Source: Dehalococcoidia bacterium (GTDB lineage Bacteria; Chloroflexota; Dehalococcoidia; GIF9; AB-539-J10). From it: 64,000 nucleotides of DNA. Where the stretch lies: assembly GCA_030615625.1 (NCBI GenBank), contig JAUWYX010000003.1, positions 62,001 to 126,000 on the forward strand. Reading direction: 5' to 3'. The notes below the pieces were generated by a model, which saw nothing but the letters and a program-made list of their open reading frames with translations, did no database searches and was not told the DNA's origin. A program made the translations under genes and the position numbers. Positions 39,344-52,695 of this stretch are shown here, one piece after another. Numbering within the stretch: the stretch's first letter is position 1; every line of letters begins with the position of its first letter.

Positions 39344-40243
39344 CTAGTCCCACACCTTCCTTGCCGTGTTGATGTCTTCGACGGTATCAAGCTCCATCCA
39401 CTGACCTTTGATATCAACGTTAGAAATAGTGTAACCCTTGTCAAGCAGTTCCTGGAACATGTCTGTTAAATATGCTTGCTCAACTGAGGGAGCGGTGTGG
39501 AATTGCGTTTTGCCGAATTCGGCTACTACTCTTTTGTAGTTCGTTTTTAATATCTCAGCACCGGTATTGGTGAATTTTGCCAATCCAATGAATTCACCGT
39601 ATGCTTCGTTTGGGTTAGTGGCCTTGCCGATTTCTATCACTCTATTGTTGCTGACAATTACTTTTTCTGCCTCTTCTATAGGATGCTGAAAGCGCTTTTT
39701 GTAATGCGACTTCCAGGCTATATCAGTAACTATAGAAATATCAGCTTTGCTTTCCAATAATGCCCTTACAACACTGGTTTTAAAAAGGATATCGGAATAT
39801 GTCGCTATAAACTCGCCATCCATATCATTTTCTGCGTACATTAATGATTCCAGTATATTGTTTCGCCTATAATTTTGATTATAAATATACTTCACACCGG
39901 TATAATTGATTACCTCCTTTTTATAACCCCTGATAACTATTATTTCATCTATCCCGCATTGATTGAATGCCTCTATTTGCCGTTGTAAGATTGTTTTGCC
40001 TTTTATCTCAAGCATGCATTTCGGCTTGTCATCAGTTAGTTCCGCTAAACGAGAACTCATACCCGCTGCTATAATTATTGCTTTTACGTTTCTCTGCCCT
40101 TTTGTCTTATCGCTTTCAATCACATAATCAGTCAAAATTTCTCCCGCCAAATCGCGGACATTTCTATTTTTTGCTATCGCTTCTTGTTTAAGTTTAGCCC
40201 AGACCTCTGAATCAATCTCAATGTTTCTTTGAATTAAAGGCAT
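39344..40243 (-). CDS. Nucleotidyltransferase (phosphocholine/phosphonate cytidylyltransferase-like) with N-terminal RHH-like segment
   Basis: A 299-residue protein. Residues 1-50 (IQRNIEIDSEVWAKLKQEAI and RNVRDLAGEILTDYV) look like a ribbon-helix-helix DNA-binding domain. Residues 54 to the end form a sugar-nucleotidyltransferase fold: AIIIAAGMSSRLAELTDDKPKCML, IDEIIVIRGYKKE, NNILESLMYAENDMDGEFIATYSDILF and QWMELDTVEDINTARKV. The latter pattern is that of LicC-like and PntC-like CTP:phosphocholine/aminoethylphosphonate cytidylyltransferases often linked to PEP mutase. Strong GGAGGAA ribosome site and its own promoter. The RHH fusion is unusual and suggests self-regulation. Confidence 0.82.
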   Translation of the reverse strand: MPLIQRNIEIDSEVWAKLKQEAIAKNRNVRDLAGEILTDYVIESDKTKGQRNVKAIIIAAGMSSRLAELTDDKPKCMLEIKGKTILQRQIEAFNQCGIDEIIVIRGYKKEVINYTGVKYIYNQNYRRNNILESLMYAENDMDGEFIATYSDILFKTSVVRALLESKADISIVTDIAWKSHYKKRFQHPIEEAEKVIVSNNRVIEIGKATNPNEAYGEFIGLAKFTNTGAEILKTNYKRVVAEFGKTQFHTAPSVEQAYLTDMFQELLDKGYTISNVDIKGQWMELDTVEDINTARKVWD

Positions 40244-40539: not shown

Positions 40540-40646
40540 ATGAGTATGATAATATTGGTTTTAGTGGCTATTTCACCATAGATGATTCCGCCGATATCCG
40601 AGAATCACAAGGGACGCTGTATCTGATGCGCCGGCTACAGAGATGA
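40540..40646 (+). pseudogene. Possible 3' remnant of an upstream gene
   Basis: The 399-base stretch 40244-40642 holds the promoter above and otherwise no convincing complete gene. At its right end a frame reads YDNIGFSGYFTIDDSADIRE followed by SQGTLYLMRRLQR and a stop that overlaps the next start codon (ATGA). That overlap and protein-like composition suggest the tail of a former operon gene. Further upstream the same frame is Cys-rich and looks non-coding. The family was not recognised. Confidence 0.3.
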
Positions 40647-42103
40647 AACAAAAGTTAAAAGATATTTTCAAGGGACCGGTGGTCTTCTACCCGCTGCTGT
40701 TTGCCGCTTTTCCCATCCTGTTTCTCTATGTCCACAACATAAGCGAAACATTGGCAAGCCAGCTCTGGCTGCCGCTGGGGGTCTCAGTGGCTGCTACTCT
40801 GGTGTTGTGGGCAATCTTGAGCCTTATACTCCGCAGCCTGTCTAAGGCGGGATTTGCCACAGCTATATTCCTGGTCTTCTTTTTCTCCTACGGACGTCTT
40901 TATGACGGGCTGAACTACTTGGGGGTGTTTGTGCCCAAACACGCCTACCTGCTCCCCGTCATGCTGTTCGTCTGGGGCTACTGCGTCTATTTCATCGGGC
41001 GGGCAAAAAGGGACTTTCGCATCACCACCAGGATGTTCAACATAGTGGCGGTGGTGCTCATTGCCATCAACCTGTTTAACATCGGCAGCTATCAAGTTAA
41101 ACTAGCCGGGATGGATGACATCACACCGGCAGAGACGTCGGAGACTGCCGCCGCCAGCCCGGCGGAGCTCAGCACCCTGCCCGATATCTACTTCATTATG
41201 CTGGATGAGTACGCACATCCCGACACCATGAAGGAATATTACGATTACGATAACAGCGAGTTTATCAACAGCCTGGAGGATAAAGGCTTCTTCATAGCTA
41301 ACGAGAGCGAAACGCAAAAGCCGATTACACCTCTGATAATCGCCCAAATACTGAACATGGAGTATCTCGATTACGAGCCGTGGAGCGACGCTACCTACCG
41401 AAAGATGGCTTACAGCCAGGTGGCAGACTTCCTGAAGGCGCGGGGTTATCAATACGTTGTTTTCGGAAGCAACTTTGCAAGTTACACGTGGGAGAAGTAT
41501 GTCAAGGACACTGCCGACCTTTACTTCAATTACTATGAAACCGGCACTACTCCCTGGATATCTGAGTTCCAGCGGATCCTGTGGAGTACCACCATGCTCA
41601 GGCCTTTCTATCTTTACCTTACCGGGAATCAATATGAAATTGCCTATCGGCGCCAGACCTTGTACACGCTGGAGAGCCTGAAGGCGCTGCCTGGACTGGA
41701 AGGCCCGAAGTTTGTTTTCGTCCATTTCAATTGTCCCCATGAGCCCTTTGTGTTCGGTCCAGAAGGCGAGTACATCGCCCCTGCAAATTGGTCCAATCAC
41801 GAGGATAAACAGTTTTATCTAGGGCAGTATATCTTCATCTCCACACAGATAGAAGCAGTGGTTGATGTATTGCTTAAGAAATCTGAGACTCCCCCCATTA
41901 TCATCTTACAGTCAGACCACGGTACCAGGCCTGGTTATCCCGTCGGCAACGATGAATGGCACAAGATACTTAACGCCATGTATCTCCCGGGCATGGATAC
42001 CAGTATACTTGATGATGATATATCGCCGGTGAACACGTTCCGTCTGATATTCAGCCATTATTTCGGCGCCGATTATCCGCTGCTGGAGGATGATCAGGAG
42101 TAG
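40643..42103 (+). CDS. Membrane sulfatase/LTA synthase-fold phosphotransferase-like protein
   Basis: A 486-residue protein with about five N-terminal transmembrane helices (residues about 13-145) and an extracellular alkaline-phosphatase-superfamily domain. Visible are the start of the fold PDIYFIMLDEYAHPDTM, a possible Thr nucleophile in KPITPLIIAQILN near residue 228, FVFVHFNCPHEPFVFGPEG, and the metal-binding SDHGTRPG. Family members include lipoteichoic acid synthase, phosphoethanolamine transferases and sulfatases. Location in the glycan island favours transfer of a phospho-group to surface polymer. The exact donor is unknown. Confidence 0.82.
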   Translation: MKQKLKDIFKGPVVFYPLLFAAFPILFLYVHNISETLASQLWLPLGVSVAATLVLWAILSLILRSLSKAGFATAIFLVFFFSYGRLYDGLNYLGVFVPKHAYLLPVMLFVWGYCVYFIGRAKRDFRITTRMFNIVAVVLIAINLFNIGSYQVKLAGMDDITPAETSETAAASPAELSTLPDIYFIMLDEYAHPDTMKEYYDYDNSEFINSLEDKGFFIANESETQKPITPLIIAQILNMEYLDYEPWSDATYRKMAYSQVADFLKARGYQYVVFGSNFASYTWEKYVKDTADLYFNYYETGTTPWISEFQRILWSTTMLRPFYLYLTGNQYEIAYRRQTLYTLESLKALPGLEGPKFVFVHFNCPHEPFVFGPEGEYIAPANWSNHEDKQFYLGQYIFISTQIEAVVDVLLKKSETPPIIILQSDHGTRPGYPVGNDEWHKILNAMYLPGMDTSILDDDISPVNTFRLIFSHYFGADYPLLEDDQE

Positions 42104-42112
42104 TAATTTACT

Positions 42113-42655
42113 ATGTCAATGAGAAGCTGGCTCAGGACTCGCAGGAAACAGATAATTACCCACACACTGATTGTGGGCGGGTTTCTGTGTTTCCTTCTTT
42201 TCCTGTCAGAGCCTCTCTTTAATCTTTTTGATAGAGCTGAATTTGGAGGAATCCCGGGAGAGGCGCAGCTTGTGGATATCTCAGTGCCAGCCGAGACAGG
42301 AAACATAAGATATTGGTTCGAATCTATCGTGACTGGAACAGTAGTGGAGTTTCTTGGTTGGGCGTTTATTGAAGGTGACTGTCCTGAAAATAGCACACCT
42401 TATCTAGTATTCAAGTCTGATCAAGCAACATATGTTTTTGAAGCTACTATGCGAGAGTTAGGGACGCTAAATCAGGTGCTTGGAATAGAAGAACCGGACT
42501 TAACTAAGGCTGGGTTCGTAGCAACTATTCCTGCAGAGAGAATGGAAAATGGAACGTATACGATTGGAATCTACATAAGAAAAGGTGAAACGGAAGCACT
42601 GCAATATACCGATAAGGTGTTAACGAGGACAAACGAAGTCGTCGAGTTAGAATAG
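42113..42655 (+). CDS. Membrane-anchored protein of unknown function
   Basis: A 180-residue protein, not recognised. One transmembrane helix at about residues 14-32 (ITHTLIVGGFLCFLLFLSEPLF) is followed by a beta-rich exported domain (NIRYWFESIVTGTVVEFLGWAFIEG...YVFEATMRELG...TYTIGIYIRKGE). The domain resembles an immunoglobulin-like or jelly-roll module. It starts 9 bases after the sulfatase-fold gene, suggesting a joint function at the cell surface. The ATG has no strong ribosome site, so coupling to the previous gene is likely. Confidence 0.72.
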   Translation: MSMRSWLRTRRKQIITHTLIVGGFLCFLLFLSEPLFNLFDRAEFGGIPGEAQLVDISVPAETGNIRYWFESIVTGTVVEFLGWAFIEGDCPENSTPYLVFKSDQATYVFEATMRELGTLNQVLGIEEPDLTKAGFVATIPAERMENGTYTIGIYIRKGETEALQYTDKVLTRTNEVVELE

Positions 42656-43559: not shown

Positions 43560-44096
43560 TCATGAGTGCCCTTCAAATTGTAGTATCTGCTCCACAGCAT
43601 CTCTGAATGAAACTGCCACCCAATCACCCGTGCCTCCTGGTTCACCAACTCTTATACCTGTCTTGCAGCCTGCTTGTCTTGCCAGCTCGACATCCATCTC
43701 GCCATCACCGATAACATAGGATTCTCCTAATTCTATATCTAAGTCTATGGCGGCCTGAAACAGCATTTTTGGTTTTGGTTTGCGGCAATCACAATTGTCG
43801 TCGGGATGATGCGGGCAGTAGTAAATGGCATCCACATGGGCTCCATGCTTAGCCAACTCCTTTTGCATCTTGTCGTGAATCCTGGCTAACATTCCCTCCG
43901 TAAAATATCCACGGGCAATTCCTGATTGATTGGTAACTACAACCACTTTAAAGCCATGCTCATTGAGCAATTTGATTCCTTCAGCCGCACCAGGCAGCAA
44001 TTCAAAGTCCTCCGGCCGACTACAATAGGGGACATCCCTGGCTATCGTCCCATCTCTGTCAAGGAATACTGCCTTAGGCACTTTTCCTGTTCCCAA
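43560..44096 (-). CDS. gmhB: D-glycero-D-manno-heptose 1,7-bisphosphate phosphatase
   Basis: A HAD-superfamily phosphatase of 178 residues. The catalytic motif is [16 protein letters not shown], motif II is [14 protein letters not shown], the zinc loop is [18 protein letters not shown], and motif IV is [17 protein letters not shown]. It removes the C7 phosphate from heptose-1,7-bisphosphate. The gene overlaps the end of gmhA by 23 bases. With hddA and gmhA it gives the D,D-heptose-1-phosphate branch. Confidence 0.93.
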
Positions 44097-44658
44097 ACAA
44101 AGCTTGCTCTACCAGGTAGCAAATAATATGCCCTGCCGTGATATGAACTTCTTGAATGCGAGGTGTATCAACTGAAGGAACAGAAAGCATATAGTCAACC
44201 AGTTCTTTAAGTCTCCCACCTTGCCCCATAAAGGCTATTGTTGTTGCCCCGAGGCGCTTTGCCTCTTCAATCCCACGTAGAACATTTGGCGAATTACCGC
44301 TGGTGCTGATGCCGATGACTACATCGCCCTGTTTAACCAAGCTCTTCACCTGTCGAACAAATACTTCCTCGTAGCCGTAATCATTCCCGATGGCGGTTAA
44401 GGCAGAGGTGTTTGTGGTCAGAGCAATAGCCGGCAAGGGTGCCCTATCCAGGTAGAATTTACCAGCTAACTCGCAGGCGATGTGCTGGGCATCGGCAGCA
44501 CTGCCACCATTGCCGAAGAGAAGCACCTTGTTTCCCTTTCTAAAGGCATTGACGAGCAAGTCTGCCATAGCCACCAGGTTTTTGGCTTCTTGCTGGAGAT
44601 ACTTCTTTAGCTTGATGCTGTCTTCAATCTGCTTTACAATATTGGCTTCCTGTTCCAT
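44074..44658 (-). CDS. gmhA: Sedoheptulose-7-phosphate isomerase
   Basis: A SIS-domain isomerase of 194 residues that converts sedoheptulose-7-phosphate to heptose-7-phosphate. It shows the signature [23 protein letters not shown], then [28 protein letters not shown] and [22 protein letters not shown]. Length and motifs are canonical. It lies between hddA and gmhB, 8 bases after hddA. Confidence 0.95.
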
Positions 44659-44666
44659 GGTTCCGC

Positions 44667-45680
44667 CTACTTAGTACTCACTTCCCAGGTCTGCAGCCCA
44701 TTGAACTCAAAGGCAAAGTTGACGACCTTGCCGCCATGCTCTTCTAATTTTTGAGCTAAAATATGCCGCTTGTCAAACTCACACAGTAACAGGAGATAAC
44801 CGCCGCCGCCAGCTCCAAGTAGCTTCCCCCCGATGGCGCCATTTTGCAGGGCAACATCATATAACTCATCAATGTGCAGGTCAGTCATTCTCGGCGTAAA
44901 TTTCTTCTTGTTCTGCCACGTCTGATTCATGAGGTAGCCAAGCTCATCTATCTGTCCCAAAAGTAAAGCATTCTTCATGGCAATAGCCAATGCCTTGGTT
45001 TCATCAAGGGCGCGAACTACATCTTCTTTCTTTTCCGTGTAGCCTCTCATCTGGTCATCGATAATTCCGGCTGACAGTCTAGTCTTACCGGTATAGCACA
45101 GCATGAGCCTGTATTCCAGCTCATTGATAATTTCCCTTTTGATTCTAAGAGGATTAACGATGGTCTTTTCGCCAAGAAACTCGATGAAATTGAAGCCACC
45201 GAAAGAGGCGGCGTACTGGTCCTGTTTTCCCCCTTTGATGCCAGCCTCTTGTCTCTCAATGCGATAGGCGAGTTCCGCGATATCATAATCACTAAGGGGC
45301 AGTCTCAACCGATGTCTAATAGCGCCAACCAAAGCCACAGTCATCGTGGACGAGGTTCCCAGCCCAGAACCTGGAGGTACATCGCTATGCAGAAAAAGGT
45401 CCATCCCATCTTTTACTCTCATCACCTTAATAGTTGCCTTGACCAGGTCTAGCTTACCATCGTAATCTAAATTGTCGGTGGTTGAATATCTAGCCACCAG
45501 GTTGTAATCAAGCGATACCACATTCACCGAATCATCGTTCCTGGTTGCTAAGCTGCAATAAGCGTACTTATCAATAGTTGTGCTTAAAACAACCCCACCC
45601 CTCTCTTCTGGGTACGGTGGAACATCTGTCCCGCCGCCACCGAAGCTGATTCTTAGTGGCGCTTTAGCACGAAAAATCAT
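44667..45680 (-). CDS. hddA: D-glycero-alpha-D-manno-heptose 7-phosphate kinase (GHMP family)
   Basis: A GHMP kinase of 337 residues. It begins [29 protein letters not shown] and has the ATP-binding [23 protein letters not shown] and the C-terminal [21 protein letters not shown]. It phosphorylates heptose-7-phosphate at C1 in the GDP-D,D-heptose pathway. No hddC (GDP-heptose pyrophosphorylase) is seen beside it. The related fucokinase/galactokinase activities cannot be excluded, but linkage with gmhA and gmhB makes the heptose role most likely. Confidence 0.9.
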
Positions 45681-45701
45681 GGTACTTATATAGATGTAAA
45701 A

Positions 45702-46670
45702 CTAAGACCTCTTTGTCATGGCACGCCAATAATCTAGCAGGTCTATCATCGTCTTTTCAAAGGGTATACTTGGCTTCCATCCAGTTTGTTCCCTGAATTT
45801 TTCGACCGAAGGTATTTGTAAGGTAACATCAGAGGGTCTCAATAATCTAGCATCAACTTCTACTTTTATTTTTTTACCAACGGGAGATAAATCAAGCAAG
45901 GTATTTAGCATGTCTCCTACCTTCTTGGTTACTTCACCACCTATGTTATAAACTTCCCCGGGAATACCTTTTTCTAAGGCTAACCAATATGCGTTTACTA
46001 TATCCCTCACATCCATAAAAGTCCGTACAGAATCCAAATTACCCACGTATATAACAGGCTCTTTCCCCCCGGCTTCTATCTCTGCAATTTGTTTGGCAAA
46101 AGACGATTCGGCAAATACGGCACCACGCCTTGGTCCTGTATGGGTGAACGCCCTTGTTCTGATGGTTCGGAGATTGTATGACTTGAAATACTGATAGCTC
46201 AATAAATCCTCACCCACTTTGCTCACAGCATATGGGCTTTGGGGTCTCAGTGGGTTATTCTCGGTAATTGGTATTTCATTTTCATAGACCTGGCCATATA
46301 CCTCTGAGGAGCTACAAATATGTATAAGGGGATCAATACCAAAACGTCTTACAGTTTCGAGTATGTTTAAGGTACCAATTATGTTGGTCTCAAGAGTATC
46401 ACGGGGGGCGGTATAGCTGGTTTGCACATAAGATTGGGCTGCCAGGTGGAAGATTCTTTCAGGCTTTATTTCCTGAATTGCCAATACAACGGAATTTTCA
46501 TCTCTCAGGTCACAATCAATCAGTCTTACTTTATCCTCAGTTCCTCTAAGATTATCCAGAGGACTACGCCATCGCTTTATGCCATAGAGTTGAACATTAT
46601 CTTTTTTAAGACAATATTCGACAAGATGGCTGCCGACAAAGCCAGTGATACCGGTAATCAAAACCTTCAT
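45702..46670 (-). CDS. NAD-dependent sugar-nucleotide dehydratase/epimerase, GDP-mannose 4,6-dehydratase-like
   Basis: An extended SDR of 322 residues. It has LITGITGFVGSHLVEYCLKK for NAD, LAAQSYVQTSY, CSSSEVYGQV with the catalytic Ser-Ser-Glu, and YAVSKVGEDLLSYQYF with Tyr-x3-Lys. The run THTGPRRGAVFAESSFAKQIA is typical of the GMD/RMD group. Placed ahead of hddA-gmhA-gmhB, it could act on GDP-heptose to give a 6-deoxy-heptose (DmhA-like), or on GDP-mannose. A TGGAGG ribosome site supports the start. Confidence 0.87.
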   Translation of the reverse strand: MKVLITGITGFVGSHLVEYCLKKDNVQLYGIKRWRSPLDNLRGTEDKVRLIDCDLRDENSVVLAIQEIKPERIFHLAAQSYVQTSYTAPRDTLETNIIGTLNILETVRRFGIDPLIHICSSSEVYGQVYENEIPITENNPLRPQSPYAVSKVGEDLLSYQYFKSYNLRTIRTRAFTHTGPRRGAVFAESSFAKQIAEIEAGGKEPVIYVGNLDSVRTFMDVRDIVNAYWLALEKGIPGEVYNIGGEVTKKVGDMLNTLLDLSPVGKKIKVEVDARLLRPSDVTLQIPSVEKFREQTGWKPSIPFEKTMIDLLDYWRAMTKRS

Positions 46671-46813: not shown

Positions 46814-49800
46814 TTACAAGTTTTTGATCAAATTGTTGAACTGTTCCTTAGCCATCTCGTAGGAAAAACACCTCCGAATATGCTCAAGCGAGTTTCTTGA
46901 AAGTTTACTCCACAACTCCTCCTCATTATAGAGCAGAATGACCCTCTGGACAAACTCCTGAGGGTCGTCGGCTACCAATACGTTTTGTTCATCGACCAAC
47001 CTTATGCCCTCTGAACCAACGGACGTCGTTACTACAGGCACCCCGTAGCTCATGCTAAGAAGTATCTTTCCCTTCACTCCAGCACCATATCGCAGCGGGG
47101 CAACAAAGACTTTACAGTTCTCAAAATAGGGAGCCAAATCTTTGATATAACCTGTTACCACTACCGCATCGGACTGCAGTGCTAGCACCTCTTTTGGGGG
47201 ATTGCTACCCACAATATAGAAACGCACATCAGGCATCCGTTGCTTTATCAGAGGGAATATTTCCTTTACAAAATAAACTACCGCGTCAACATTGGGGAGA
47301 TGGGCAAAACCACCGATAAACAGGATATCTTTTCTCTCTGAGAATTGTTTCTGTGGACTTTTCACGCTGTGCACGGAGCGAATTATAACTTCAACGTTAA
47401 GTGACGGGTCTTCCTTGAGGAGTATTCCTTTCTCCACGGGGCTGACTACAAAAGTAATATCACTGTTTCGCGCTAGATGCAGTTCGGTTGTTTTCCATTC
47501 CTCAGCCTGCTTTAGCAGTTTCTCGTTGTTTTCAATACTTGCTCGCCTGGACTCCCTGAGAAAGTTAAGGTCTACAGTATCATATACGACCTTAGCCCTG
47601 ATACAATCCCGTTTTACCCTATCCAAGTACTTCATAGCTATATATGCCCGGCTCAGAATAACTACGTCAAAGAGTCTGCCGCACTTTTTGATATAATCTT
47701 CAACTGAGACAACATAAGGAGCATAAATAACCTCTATGCCTTTCTGCTGTAGCTCTTCGGTGTATGGCTCAAGTCTTAGTAAGTTATCTCCAATAAATGT
47801 GACCTTGTTTCCAAGTTCTACTAATATCTTGAGCATGCTGAACATATCAAAAGAACCAGCATCCTTGTCATATGTAGGAACATAATTGTCTATTACAAGT
47901 ATTCTTTTCCCTGGGACCCTATCCCTTGCTAAAAAAGCATTTTCAGCAGCAGGGGGGTAATGGTGTTTTTGAAGTACCGGACTCCACTTTCCTACAAATT
48001 TTGGCCTGTTTATTTCCTGGTATTTCTTGATACCCGAGGATGTGTCTGTGCCACAACTTACTCCTTCGAAGTGGGCAATCACCGACATCGGCTGATACGT
48101 AACCCTGTATCCCAGATTTCTGATTGCAAAGCAAAGGTCAGCGTCCTCATAATAGCCGGGCTTGAATCTCTCATCGAAGCCACCTATTTTTTCAAATAGC
48201 TCTCTTTTCACCGTAAGACTGGCGCCTGAACAATAATCGACTTCTCTAACGTAGTTATACTCTGGCTTGTCCGGGTCGTCTCCTCGACCATAATTCCAAC
48301 CAGAACCATCGTTCCAGATTATCCCTCCAGCTTCCTGCAGGGTCCCACCTGGGTAAACAAGCTTGGAGCCGACAGCGCCGACGTCCTCTCTCTTTATGAC
48401 TTTTAACAAAGGCGGTAACCAATCCTTGGTAACCATCGTATCGTTATTCAGGAACAAGATGTGATTGCCTTTGCTTGCCTTGGCTCCCCGGTTGCAGGAT
48501 TCTATAAACCCGGCATTCTGTTTATTCGTAACTAAATGTAAGTTTTTGACCTTGGACAGCACTTCGGCGGTTGCATCAGTAGAAGCATCGTCTATCACAA
48601 CGACCTCATAATTGCCATCTGTGTTTTCACAAATCGACTTCAGGCAATTAAGAGTATACTTCCAGCTATTGTATGCAGGGATAACAATAGATACCTCTGG
48701 CTTCTGAGAAGGCACGGGGAAAACCAGTTTATCCGCCTCTTTTTTTGATATAGAAGCGTTGAACTTCGCTAAGTCATGACGAGGTTTTTTTATTACAGCA
48801 CGTCTAAGAATGAGCCAGAGCCGTACTTTTCTGAAGAAGCTTTTCCAGCCTTCGTTGAGGATGACCCTGATGCCGGTCAGCCCAAGTTCGTAGTAATAGC
48901 GACGGCGGGTGCCGCGGGGCAGCAGCCTTTCGACTACTCTCTGGTAGCGGTTTACAAGCTGCATAGGTATGCTTCGCTGAATCTGCTGCATCTGGTATTC
49001 CAGGCTATGTATCTGGTATTCCAGGCTGTCTATCTGGTATTTCAGGCTGTCTATCTGGTATTTCAGGCTGTTTATCTGGGCGACCTTTTCTTGGAGATTT
49101 GTTTCAAGAGAGCTTATCTGGGCGGCCTGGCGTTTGGCTTGAGCAGCAAGAGTTTCCACTTGATTCTGCAAATAATGAATCTGAAAGTTTCTTTCCTGTA
49201 AAATAGCTTGCTGATTCTTTGTTTGTGATTTACGCCGGGTAATAATCGGCTCAGCGTCCACAGTTATAACTTGCTTAAGCACAATGTCTTTTATTTTGAG
49301 TTTATGTTCTTGCAAAACCTTGAAATCATTAGCCAACGCGGTGGAATAGTCAGGCTTGCTGTTCTGAAGCTCTTCGAATCTGGCTTTTAGTTCGTCAAAA
49401 CTCCTGAACAGGTAGCTATCAAGCTTTCTGTCTTCCATAAAGAATCTTTGTTTATCTTGACTGTCGTATAAAACAAAAGGGACATTGTGAACGTAAGCAA
49501 AAATAGCCCCATGAAGGGACGTACAGATGAAATAATCGAAATTCCCTATGACGGTGTATATTTCTTCAGGCCTTAAAATCGGAAGCAATGTAGAATTTTT
49601 CACCTTCTGGCTAAGTCTTCCCATGGATGTGAAATCACGGTTGTAATGGGTAATCGGCAAAAAGTAGATATGAAAAGGCTGCTTTGATAGATACTCGGCA
49701 AACGCTTTCTCATCTACCACTCCCTCACACAGGTGAACACCGATGCTGGGTTTCTGAATCTTCAGGTCGAAACGAGGTAGGTCTTTGAGTAGCATAGTAG

Positions 49801-50167
49801 TGCAGGGCACCACTGTGACTTCTCTGCTGAGGCAGGAAAGCTTCTGTTTATCCCCCTTGCTTCTGACAGTGACATAAAGATAATCATTAAGATATTGGAG
49901 GTCATCTGGGGAACCAAATATGCCACAACAGTTGAGAATGTGTTTGCCAGGCACTCTAAATTTGTCATAGAAGAAATCTGGACTGGGTTGCAGAAGATAA
50001 CCACCACCAATGATTATCGTCCGGTAGTCACTCGGATTAAACCTGCCGGGGACAAGCTCTTCATAGTCCACCCCCATTTCAGCCAGCATCTCCCTTACGC
50101 TTATACCAACAGCCTGGTCGCCAACGTTGCCGCTAATATTATCGTAAAGAATGCCTACTTTTTTCAT
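46814..50167 (-). CDS. Three-domain glycan protein: polysaccharide pyruvyl transferase, coiled coil, GT2 and GT4
   Basis: At 1117 residues this is a fusion. Residues 1-310 form a polysaccharide pyruvyl transferase domain (GGGYLLQPSPDFF; FICTSLHGAIFAYVHNVPFVLYD). Residues about 318-400 are a coiled coil with five 7-residue repeats such as QIDSLKY. About 485-740 is a family 2 glycosyltransferase (SIVIPAYNSWKYTLNCLKS, VVIDDASTDATAEVL, FLNNDTMVTKDW). About 755-1117 is a family 4 glycosyltransferase (ILVIDNYVPTYDKDAGSFDM; FVAPLRYGAGVKGKILLSMSYGVPVVTTSVGSEG). It starts four bases inside the ABC ATPase gene. It may add several residues and a ketal-pyruvate to one chain. Confidence 0.9.
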   Translation of the reverse strand: MKKVGILYDNISGNVGDQAVGISVREMLAEMGVDYEELVPGRFNPSDYRTIIIGGGYLLQPSPDFFYDKFRVPGKHILNCCGIFGSPDDLQYLNDYLYVTVRSKGDKQKLSCLSREVTVVPCTTMLLKDLPRFDLKIQKPSIGVHLCEGVVDEKAFAEYLSKQPFHIYFLPITHYNRDFTSMGRLSQKVKNSTLLPILRPEEIYTVIGNFDYFICTSLHGAIFAYVHNVPFVLYDSQDKQRFFMEDRKLDSYLFRSFDELKARFEELQNSKPDYSTALANDFKVLQEHKLKIKDIVLKQVITVDAEPIITRRKSQTKNQQAILQERNFQIHYLQNQVETLAAQAKRQAAQISSLETNLQEKVAQINSLKYQIDSLKYQIDSLEYQIHSLEYQMQQIQRSIPMQLVNRYQRVVERLLPRGTRRRYYYELGLTGIRVILNEGWKSFFRKVRLWLILRRAVIKKPRHDLAKFNASISKKEADKLVFPVPSQKPEVSIVIPAYNSWKYTLNCLKSICENTDGNYEVVVIDDASTDATAEVLSKVKNLHLVTNKQNAGFIESCNRGAKASKGNHILFLNNDTMVTKDWLPPLLKVIKREDVGAVGSKLVYPGGTLQEAGGIIWNDGSGWNYGRGDDPDKPEYNYVREVDYCSGASLTVKRELFEKIGGFDERFKPGYYEDADLCFAIRNLGYRVTYQPMSVIAHFEGVSCGTDTSSGIKKYQEINRPKFVGKWSPVLQKHHYPPAAENAFLARDRVPGKRILVIDNYVPTYDKDAGSFDMFSMLKILVELGNKVTFIGDNLLRLEPYTEELQQKGIEVIYAPYVVSVEDYIKKCGRLFDVVILSRAYIAMKYLDRVKRDCIRAKVVYDTVDLNFLRESRRASIENNEKLLKQAEEWKTTELHLARNSDITFVVSPVEKGILLKEDPSLNVEVIIRSVHSVKSPQKQFSERKDILFIGGFAHLPNVDAVVYFVKEIFPLIKQRMPDVRFYIVGSNPPKEVLALQSDAVVVTGYIKDLAPYFENCKVFVAPLRYGAGVKGKILLSMSYGVPVVTTSVGSEGIRLVDEQNVLVADDPQEFVQRVILLYNEEELWSKLSRNSLEHIRRCFSYEMAKEQFNNLIKNL
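48991..49080 (-). repeat. 21-bp tandem repeats encoding coiled-coil heptads
   Basis: Units beginning at 48991, 49012, 49033, 49054 and 49075 repeat with a period of exactly 21 bases (TCTGGTATTTCAGGCTGTCTA on one strand). They encode Q-I-D-S-L-K/E-Y heptads on the minus strand. The last copy runs into diverged sequence. Each copy adds one heptad without breaking the frame. Confidence 0.9.
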
Positions 50168-50904
50168 TTCCCTTGCAAGAGCGCTAGATAGTCGTTTATT
50201 ACCTTTTCAGTATCACCCATGGTAACAATCCGGCCCTCGTTCAACAGCATCGACCGCTGGCACAGTGCCTTCACTGTATCCAGAGCATGGGAGACGAAAA
50301 CTATAGTCTTGCCCTCGGCTTTGAACTGGCTCATCTTGTCCCGGCATTTTTTCTTGAAGGCTTCATCGCCCACGGCGAAGACTTCGTCTATGAGGAAGGT
50401 GTCCGGGTTGGCGTGAATGGCTGTGGCAAAAGCCAACCGCAGGGTCATGCCGGAGGAGAAATTTTTCAGCTTCATGGTTTCGAATTTTTTGAGCTCGGCG
50501 AAGTCGAAGATGTCGTCGTATATCCTGTCCACCTGCTTGCGTCTCAGACCCAGGATGGAGGAGTAGATGTAAACGTTTTCCTTAGCTGTGAGTTCCGGCT
50601 GAAAGCCAACGCCCAGCTCGAGGAAGGAGGCAACTTTGCCGTCCAGGGCAACTGAGCCGCTATCGGAGTATAAGACCCTGGCCAGTATTTTAAGCAGCGT
50701 GCTCTTTCCGGAACCGTTCCTGCCGATTATGCCCAGGGCTTCGCCTTTGTTGACCTCGAAGCTGACATCTTTCAGCGCCCAGAACTCTTCGTAGTCGAAT
50801 TGCCTTTTAATCAGGCCGACTATGTTCTGGAAGACTGTGTTCTTTTTTTCGTGGGGGATGCGGAATTTCTTGGAGATGTTGTCAACGATTATGGCACTCA
50901 TCAT
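50164..50904 (-). CDS. Polysaccharide ABC exporter, ATP-binding protein (Wzt/TagH type)
   Basis: An ABC ATPase of 246 residues. It carries Walker A ALGIIGRNGSGKSTLLKILAR, Q-loop-region GFQPELTAKENVYIYSSILG, signature LKNFSSGMTLRLAFATAI and Walker B TFLIDEVFAVGDE. It lacks the long C-terminal carbohydrate-binding domain of Wzt from E. coli O8/O9, so export may not need a chain-end modification. Two ATGs (50904, 50901) are possible. It overlaps the permease gene by four bases. It drives export of the glycan built by the surrounding enzymes. Confidence 0.93.
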   Translation of the reverse strand: MMSAIIVDNISKKFRIPHEKKNTVFQNIVGLIKRQFDYEEFWALKDVSFEVNKGEALGIIGRNGSGKSTLLKILARVLYSDSGSVALDGKVASFLELGVGFQPELTAKENVYIYSSILGLRRKQVDRIYDDIFDFAELKKFETMKLKNFSSGMTLRLAFATAIHANPDTFLIDEVFAVGDEAFKKKCRDKMSQFKAEGKTIVFVSHALDTVKALCQRSMLLNEGRIVTMGDTEKVINDYLALLQGK

Positions 50905-51653
50905 ATCTCCTCGGCGAAGCGGCGCTGTAATTTGCTGAAGACAAAGCTGCCCACGAGATAGGCAGCGATGGCGAAACCGATGACAACCGCAATGCTGTAC
51001 AGTGAAGGTAAATCACCGGCGACCATTACATCGCGGTACATGCCTATAAACAGAGTTACCGGGTTGAGCAGGTAATAGAACATTAGATGAGCGGGAATTA
51101 TGGACAGGGGATAGATAATAGGTGAGCAGAAGAACAGGACACTGATCAACACCTCCCATATCTGGTTGAGGTCACGGAAGTAAACGAAGAGGGAGGATAG
51201 GAGCAGCCCGGCACCGAAAATGAACCAGAAGTAGATGATGTGAATTAGAGGGAACAGGAGCACGGTGACGGGTAGATATCCGAGCAAGACGAATAGTATG
51301 GGCAGCAGGACTATGAACTCAAGCAGGGAGCTTATGAGGTTGGCCAGGGCAGTGCTCAGGACCAGTATCTGCCGGGGTATATAGACTTTGGTCACCAGGC
51401 TGGGCTTGCCGACGATGGCGCCGAGGGAAGCGGAGGTGGCGATGGAGAAAAACCGCCAGGCCATTATGCCTACCAGCAAATTTATGGCGAAATTCTCCTC
51501 GCTACCGAAGAGATGTCTGAAGATAAAGTACAGGACCAGTGCCAGCAAAAGTGGGCTGAGCAGAGACCAGAAAAAGCCGAGGGAGGTATTCTGGTAGCGG
51601 TTTTTCAGGTCGACTACGGTCAGGGTCCTGATTAACTCTCGATATTGCCACAT
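50901..51653 (-). CDS. Polysaccharide ABC exporter, permease (Wzm/TagG type)
   Basis: A six-helix ABC-2 permease of 250 residues. It begins ELIRTLTVVDLKNRYQNTSLGFFWSLLSPLLLALVLYFIF, the usual amphipathic start plus first helix. It continues with GIMAWRFFSIATSASLGAI, YFRDLNQIWEVLISVLFFCSPIIYPLSIIPA and a last helix near VIGFAIAAYLVGSFVFSKLQRR. Together with the ATPase just downstream it should export lipid-linked polysaccharide. Confidence 0.93.
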   Translation of the reverse strand: MWQYRELIRTLTVVDLKNRYQNTSLGFFWSLLSPLLLALVLYFIFRHLFGSEENFAINLLVGIMAWRFFSIATSASLGAIVGKPSLVTKVYIPRQILVLSTALANLISSLLEFIVLLPILFVLLGYLPVTVLLFPLIHIIYFWFIFGAGLLLSSLFVYFRDLNQIWEVLISVLFFCSPIIYPLSIIPAHLMFYYLLNPVTLFIGMYRDVMVAGDLPSLYSIAVVIGFAIAAYLVGSFVFSKLQRRFAEEI

Positions 51654-51726: not shown

Positions 51727-52695
51727 TCACCGAATGCCCCATAATTGAGCCCAGGCTAAGTTCCAGTTTAACCGCTGAAACAAAGTGAGGTCGGAGGCCT
51801 TTCTTAGTGATTGATACTGGTCTCGCCTCTGCTTTATATTGCTCCGCTCTCGCCACAGCGAAGCCAGGGCATCGGATTTGGCCCTGATATATGACCTGCC
51901 CTTGGCCAGAGTGTAGACTATTATCATGAGCTCTATTACCAGGAAAATAGGCAGGCAAGCTAGTAAGGTTAAAGGCCTTAGCGTGCTCAATAGCAGAGTT
52001 TGCCGATTTTTCTCGAGACGAAATAGTTTCCCTGGGTCCATCTTCAGGCTGTATTTATGGAAGACCATGGATTCGGGCAGGCAATATACTTCATAACCCA
52101 TCAAACGCAAGAGCCAGGAGACGATTACATCGTCGTTCCCCATAAAACACCATCCAGGCGCACCACCCATCTGCTCGAGTAACTGACGCCTAATCAGGTA
52201 GGAGCAACCGCTAACACCGGGCACGTTCTCAGGAGTGACTGAATTATTATCCTCTTTGCCCAGGCCGCGGCAAAAGCCCAGGCCTGTGATATGAATATTC
52301 AAACCCAGGGCATTGATTTTAGTCCGGTCATCAAAGAGCAAAACCTTAGGCGTTACGGCTCCTACCTGCGGGTTCTCATCTAAAAAAGCTACCATAGAAC
52401 CTAGCCAGTTGGGAGCAACTTCAGTGTCTATATTAAGCGGCCCAATGTAGTCACCAGCAGCATAAGTTAAGCCGCTATTAATGCCACCAGCGTAACCTAA
52501 ATTGCTATCATTAACAACAAATGTTAAGTTAGGGAACTTGTTTCTAGCGTACTCCAGGCTCCCATCGCTGGAATTGTTGTCAACGAAAATAACCTCGAAA
52601 TTCGTATAGCTTTGTTTCAAGACTGATGAAATGCAAGCATCAAGATGCGGCATCCCATTATAATTTACTAAAATCACCGATGCTCTCTTTGCCAT
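51727..52695 (-). CDS. Family 2 glycosyltransferase, rhamnosyltransferase-like
   Basis: A GT-A-fold enzyme of 322 residues. The N-terminus RASVILVNYNGMPHLDACIS and the first Asp motif VIFVDNNSSDGSLEYAR are canonical. GPLNIDTEVAPNWLGSMVAF holds the metal-binding Asp, and GYAGGINSGLTYA is typical of the WcaA/rhamnosyltransferase group. A C-terminal hydrophobic helix (LTLLACLPIFLVIELMIIVYTL) anchors it in the membrane. An AAGGAAG ribosome site precedes the ATG. With rml genes in the island, rhamnose is a plausible donor sugar, though unproved. Confidence 0.9.
   Translation of the reverse strand: MAKRASVILVNYNGMPHLDACISSVLKQSYTNFEVIFVDNNSSDGSLEYARNKFPNLTFVVNDSNLGYAGGINSGLTYAAGDYIGPLNIDTEVAPNWLGSMVAFLDENPQVGAVTPKVLLFDDRTKINALGLNIHITGLGFCRGLGKEDNNSVTPENVPGVSGCSYLIRRQLLEQMGGAPGWCFMGNDDVIVSWLLRLMGYEVYCLPESMVFHKYSLKMDPGKLFRLEKNRQTLLLSTLRPLTLLACLPIFLVIELMIIVYTLAKGRSYIRAKSDALASLWRERSNIKQRRDQYQSLRKASDLTLFQRLNWNLAWAQLWGIR

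Follow-up and report, generated by a model that had tools for sequence, protein, structure and literature searches.

The window analyzed here is the whole stretch of 64,000 nucleotides from a Dehalococcoidia bacterium (genome G000), and all positions refer to it unless a contig is named. The features of the locus are collected in Table 1. The plus strand opposite the fusion gene is full of stops. On the minus strand, glmS is followed by a sugar epimerase/dehydratase-like gene, two GT2 genes, wzm, wzt and the fusion gene, after which come genes for a GDP-mannose-dehydratase-like protein, an HddA-like kinase, GmhA and a GmhB-like protein. The stop and start codons overlap by 4 bases at both the wzm/wzt and the wzt/fusion-gene junctions, and all three genes are on the same strand, in agreement with an earlier note that had placed the fusion gene directly behind an ABC exporter. 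The glycan probably contains manno-heptose or its 6-deoxy form; several of the NCBIfam/Pfam matches of the heptose genes were below equivalog cut-offs.

Table 1. Features of the locus (window positions).
Feature	Position	Strand	Basis or remarks
Pyruvyl transferase-coil-GT2-GT4 fusion gene	46814-50167	minus	1117 aa, starts ATG
Polysaccharide pyruvyl transferase (PPT) module, residues 1-300, divergent "SLHG" lineage	49268-50167	minus	PF04230
Coiled coil, residues 315-402, about 12.5 heptads	48962-49225	minus	heptad periodicity and AF2 helix
21-bp tandem array, 4.3 copies, encodes near-identical heptads	48990-49079	minus	TRF
Linker with amphipathic helix, residues 400-485	48713-48970	minus	hydrophobic moment; in both G007 halves
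GT2 (GT-A) domain, residues 486-745	47933-48712	minus	Pfam, AF2
GT4 (GT-B) domain, residues 746-1117	46814-47932	minus	Pfam, Foldseek
Wzt, ABC exporter ATPase, 246 aa, without C-terminal carbohydrate-binding module	50164-50904	minus	ABC_tran
Wzm, ABC exporter permease	50901-51653	minus	ABC2_membrane
GT2 glycosyltransferase, same locus	51727-52695	minus	conserved in G007 (82%), G039, G036, G055
Heptose genes: GmhB-like, GmhA, HddA-like, GDP-mannose-4,6-dehydratase-like	43560-46670	minus	NCBIfam/Pfam

The carbohydrate-binding module of Wzt (PF14524) was not found in G000, and it was likewise not found in the related genomes G007, G046, G039, G069 and G574. Wzt is 85-87% identical in relatives whose large protein has another N-terminal module. 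For G000 and G007, whose modules are pyruvyl and methyl, respectively, the value is 87%; the exporter thus seems cap-blind and probably does not recognize the cap. The Dehalococcoidia are generally taken to have no outer membrane; an S-layer-type or cell-surface glycan is thus a likelier product than LPS. Sister single-contig genomes of the same class (1.4-1.9 Mb) contained 20-30 reductive dehalogenase matches each, as would be expected of Dehalococcoidia.

Other genes of the window were also inspected. The N-terminal 45 residues of a nucleotidyltransferase (39344-40243, minus strand) looked, by eye only, like a ribbon-helix-helix. Two plus-strand genes (40643-42103 and 42113-42655) run against the locus and had no Pfam match at 1e-8; the first appeared by eye to have an N-terminal membrane part and a C-terminal hydrolase-like part.

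Domains of the fusion protein

Pfam, heptad analysis and AlphaFold2 (AF2) agreed with the earlier description of a pyruvyl transferase, a coil, a GT2 and a GT4 domain in one 1117-residue chain. Matches above the curated cut-offs were obtained for PS_pyruv_trans (PF04230; residues 14-235, 70.3 bits against a cut-off of 25.3, E = 3.4e-19), Glycos_transf_2 (residues 493-618, 111 bits) and Glyco_trans_1_4 (residues 946-1081, 103 bits). In the full-length AF2 model, the GT2 (pLDDT about 95) and GT4 domains were confident and matched GT-A and GT-B glycosyltransferases, the Foldseek matches of GT4 being MshA/BshA/PglA. The GT2 motifs LNND576 and E674-D675 are invariant in four relatives. The EX7E glutamates are absent from GT4; a glutamate occupies this variable position in 22 of 77 relatives, and the idea that its absence is a lesion was rejected on that account.

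Because of a mixed alignment, the full-length model was poor over residues 1-320, and a separate model of residues 1-470 was used there. It featured a confident two-Rossmann domain (pLDDT mostly 80-97). The best Foldseek match of this module in the PDB was 6X1L (KP1_0663 of K. pneumoniae, identified as WbbZ in PMC10629545), and the third was 5AX7 (Pvg1p). Since UDP-GlcNAc 2-epimerases (Z 18.9) ranked above Pvg1p (Z 16.6) in VIA-align and other GT-B-like folds score as well, the fold by itself does not identify the module as a pyruvyltransferase. The predicted identity is instead carried by the PF04230 profile and motifs; a phmmer search of PDB sequences with the PPT domain gave no relevant match (best E, 0.27).

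In an alignment of 25 PF04230 proteins, N14, G16, R102 and H219 were invariant. The NxGD motif of WbbZ is present as N14-G16-D17, and H219 is the invariant histidine. In CsaB, R148, H308 and K328 were reported as critical for binding PEP, and docking pointed to R306 as well (PMC10435577). The counterparts of the first three are R102, H219 and K239, with an H-to-K spacing (20 residues) equal to that of CsaB. S217, however, stands where CsaB R306 or Pvg1p R337 would be, and one of the four PEP-contact residues is thus Ser in place of Arg. For the pyruvyl transferase of the earlier note, the PEP-site residues are mostly kept (R102, H219 and K239), the second arginine excepted. Ser at this position is common to the window's protein, L048 and L190, and to the SFH proteins L076, L176 and L173; in the alignment, three PF04230 proteins that stand alone have the SxH form. 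The second PEP arginine is not among the conserved PF04230 motifs listed in PMC10629545 and is therefore not strictly family-defining. Of the WbbZ motif R121-xxx-(S/T), R102 is kept and the +4 residue is D106; Asp at +4 was also found in other aligned PF04230 proteins.

These two substitutions would fit a domain that no longer transferred pyruvate and instead bound the chain or moved another group, the coil being structural; S217 is found in 3/3 members of the lineage. We regard such a loss as improbable, given that the remaining PEP-site residues and NxGD are kept and that both substitutions recur in other PF04230 proteins. In addition, the PPT identity of 70% across genera (see below) implies strong selection. 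On balance, we judge the module likely to be active.

The coiled coil and its tandem repeats

Over residues 315-402, the power at a period of 3.5 was 3.28; 5000 shuffles averaged 0.19 and never exceeded 1.94. Heptad position "a" reads TLIVAILIIIIMI (i.e. Ile/Val/Leu), and position "d" reads QRLLQLKLLLLI (mostly Leu). The AF2 model of residues 1-470 contained one helix spanning 312-415. Residues 399-416 form an amphipathic helix (hydrophobic moment 0.54), and the linker is likely a membrane or docking segment. The TRF array has a period of 21, 94% matches, a score of 145 and no indels; together with the heptad periodicity, it confirms the earlier claim of a coil of near-identical heptads encoded by 21-bp repeats.

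Arrays were also counted in the 75 ORFs of this GT2 family in which 150 residues or more precede the GT2 domain. A tandem array preceded the GT2 domain in 23 of the 75, and one was found at or after it in only 2. The period was a multiple of 21 bp in 19/23 of the preceding arrays. Heptad-wise tandem growth of the coil is thus a trait of the GT2 family at large and not peculiar to the window's gene. Long tandem arrays were seen in the coils before the GT2-GT4 core in L154, L126, L111, L134, L142 and others, with periods of 42, 105, 21/42/63, 126 and 21 bp; the L154 coil contains 10.5 copies of a 42-bp unit.

Relatives and exchange of the N-terminal module

A single-protein scan of genome contigs with the whole fusion protein yielded no relatives, and tblastn of plasmids with the PPT-coil half yielded no matches. 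When related genomes were searched with the whole protein, relatives of two kinds were obtained, sharing either the core or the PPT module. For the linker-GT2-GT4 part, identity reaches 67% with G007 (same genus), 58% with G046 (same order) and about 38% with G039, and the module before the coil is a methyltransferase in all three (two in tandem in G007, a GT2 and one methyltransferase in G046, one in G039). In G069 (another genus), it is the PPT-coil part that matches, at 70% identity over residues 1-300, and this part is joined to different, unrelated GTs in an 1882-residue protein. Identity to G069 then declines along the fusion protein, to 51% (residues 301-350), 28% (351-400) and 22% (401-450), and the N-terminal protein of G007 matches only from about residue 385. 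Because the G069 identity fades where the G007 match begins, two ancestries meet inside the coil.

The G007 locus (L038:6414-10483) features an MT-MT-coil-linker terminator and a linker-GT2-GT4 polymerase as separate, overlapping ORFs. Both carry their own copy of the linker, and a frameshift was rejected as the origin of the split because of this duplication. A 1053-aa protein of G017 (L047:5735-8896) has phosphoribosyltransferase-like, FkbM methyltransferase-like and GT4 domains and ends in the same coil/linker. In the same exporter locus of G016, the protein encoded immediately behind wzt is 670 aa long and contains PF04230 (L042:2266-4278), and a second PF04230 gene, standing alone, lies downstream (L042:8739-9854).

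PF04230 was present in 13/84 genomes of the order and was fused before a coil and GTs only in G000 and G069. A class-wide search (393 genomes) added G574 (1055 residues, PPT-coil-GT2-GT2), for three such fusions of the window's PPT lineage in the class. In a 400-genome sample of the phylum, G194 encodes a CsaB-type PPT-coil-GT4-GT4 protein of a different PPT lineage behind Wzm-Wzt. It was the only PPT-coil-GT among the long PF04230 frames found there; three others are flippase fusions, and L068 contains only PF04230 within the stretch examined. In L059, L064 and L073 (G365, G107 and G222; other Chloroflexota), PF04230 is fused to polysaccharide flippase-like domains.

The GT2-GT4 core is widespread, with at least 581 confirmed relatives. 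Across bacteria, 61 modules preceding it were checked; among the matches listed, 16 were methyltransferase, 13 GT2, 8 Glyco_transf_4 and 7 Sulfotransfer_3. PF04230 was outside the 25 commonest families of these 61 among the matches listed, where one or two cases are possible. L089, labelled "Klebsiella", is a MAG and was not counted as Klebsiella.

PPT-coil systems with PPTs of the RLH/RMH type are found in G194 and in the betaproteobacterium G479, and in both, Wzt has a C-terminal module. In G479 (L175/L191), PF04230 is followed by a coil beside wzm-wzt, as in the window, but the PPT-coil is not fused to GTs and Wzt has a carbohydrate-binding module. The Wzt C-terminal modules of G194 (L208:2852-7204) and G479 (L191:11184-11888) are 42% identical across phyla and far less like the other Wzt C-terminal modules compared; they constitute a candidate pyruvate-reading module.

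Capping, export and chain length

The earlier note had stated that such an architecture is not described. This was only partly right, because terminator, coil and dual-GT polymerase have been published in single chains: K. pneumoniae O7 ORF6 (MT-kinase-coil-GT2-GT2) and O12 WbbB (PMC11231755) and WsaE (MT-GT-GT behind wzm-wzt; PMC2943079). O7 ORF6 shares with the fusion protein an N-terminal terminator, a central coil, two C-terminal polymerase GTs and an ABC locus, but its terminator is a methyltransferase plus kinase and its GTs are GT2-GT2; the published coil-terminator systems also have a Wzt carbohydrate-binding module, which admits only capped chains (PMC11231755). WsaE of Geobacillus stearothermophilus has an N-terminal cap enzyme and two GT domains, and wzm-wzt-wsaE overlap as wzm, wzt and the fusion gene do. 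It serves the S-layer glycan of a Gram-positive organism; its cap is 2-O-methyl, and a coil is not mentioned in the portion of PMC2943079 available. WbbB (Raoultella terrigena/K. pneumoniae O12) likewise combines polymerization and termination, but its chains are capped with beta-Kdo by a retaining Kdo glycosyltransferase (PMC11231755, PMC9587256). In WbdD/WbdA of E. coli O9a, a coil lies between cap enzyme and polymerase, which are split as in G007; unlike in the fusion protein, the cap is methyl-phosphate, the polymerase is separate and Wzt has a carbohydrate-binding module (PMC3482155).

The proposed likeness to WbdD-type chain-length-control proteins, and the union of a chain-capping module with polymerase GTs in one chain, were supported. 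As in the coiled-coil terminator type (WbdD/WbbB/O7), the cap enzyme is located at the coil end far from the polymerase, in a Wzm-Wzt locus; PF14524 is missing from the Wzt. The layout is known with other caps, and it is the cap enzyme that differs, not the principle. What is new is that a pyruvyl cap is fused into a protein of the ruler type, that it is swapped for methyl caps at the coil, and that the export checkpoint is missing. Pyruvate as a terminating cap has been proposed for a few bacteria, with candidates named in B. vietnamiensis and P. protegens, and was reported as not yet biochemically validated (PMC10629545).

We consider it somewhat probable that the fusion protein is a single-chain polymerase and pyruvyl terminator for a lipid-linked surface glycan with a cap-blind exporter. 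It would assemble this glycan, probably heptose-containing, as part of the ABC exporter pathway. Chain extension would fall to GT2 and GT4 at the C-terminus, working at the membrane, where the linker would hold them. The coil, probably oligomeric, would serve as a spacer for the N-terminal PF04230 domain; terminator and polymerase are separated by a coil in published systems (PMC11231755). The PF04230 domain would move pyruvate from PEP as a ketal onto the non-reducing end, and extension would stop. With no carbohydrate-binding module on Wzt, export would probably extend to chains with and without the cap.

Several observations count in favor of termination by pyruvate. Methyltransferases, the commonest caps, take this position in front of the coil in two relatives, G046 and G039; G007 encodes them on an ORF of their own next to the same core, a split like that of WbdD and WbdA. 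Methyltransferase (16/61) and Sulfotransfer_3 (7/61) modules precede the core among the matches listed, and PPT-coil-GT recurs in G069, G574 and G194. R102, H219 and K239 are kept, and the layout resembles that of the published terminator-coil-GT-GT proteins. Counting against it are the missing Wzt module, the cap-blind Wzt, S217 and the GT4 without EX7E.

In a different explanation, pyruvate decorates some chains, the balance of polymerase and cap-blind exporter sets their length, and the coil only oligomerizes and tethers. The precedent is Klebsiella O1, where WbbZ (6X1L), of the same PF04230 fold, places pyruvate at the non-reducing end, Wzt lacks the module, and the pyruvate is decorative and not required for length control (PMC10629545). 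The window's Wzt is also without the module and is closely conserved beside other N-terminal modules. WbbZ is a stand-alone, coil-less protein, however, whereas the window's protein joins cap enzyme, coil and polymerase in one chain, an arrangement recurring in several genera; we judge mere decoration rather unlikely. Many PF04230 enzymes act on repeat units (review PMC6801904), and pyruvate could in principle be placed on every internal unit, with GT2 and GT4 adding adaptor or side sugars. This seems very improbable, as the module at this place is a terminator in published fused systems (PMC11231755) and the exchanged modules all lie at the coil's distal end.

If pyruvate does terminate the chain, the coil may act as a ruler even though no export checkpoint is present, since termination would by itself limit the length. 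The textbook version of the ruler is weakened by the missing Wzt carbohydrate-binding module. A broader scheme of length control without a checkpoint, with pyruvyl, methyl and sulfo caps swapped at the coil before a shared GT2-GT4 core, a cap-blind exporter, and coil length changing in whole heptads by 21-bp duplication, is offered tentatively, as a possibility that we hold to be on balance doubtful. If it were true, strains of one species could differ in glycan length.

The window's locus and its relatives are fused, single-gene candidates for pyruvate termination. Their natural methyl-cap counterparts share the same polymerase core and permit asking which of the two, cap chemistry or coil length, determines how long the glycan becomes; the same loci permit asking whether coil control works without a Wzt checkpoint. 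The recurrent 21n-bp coil arrays in this GT family suggest how rulers could lengthen in evolution.
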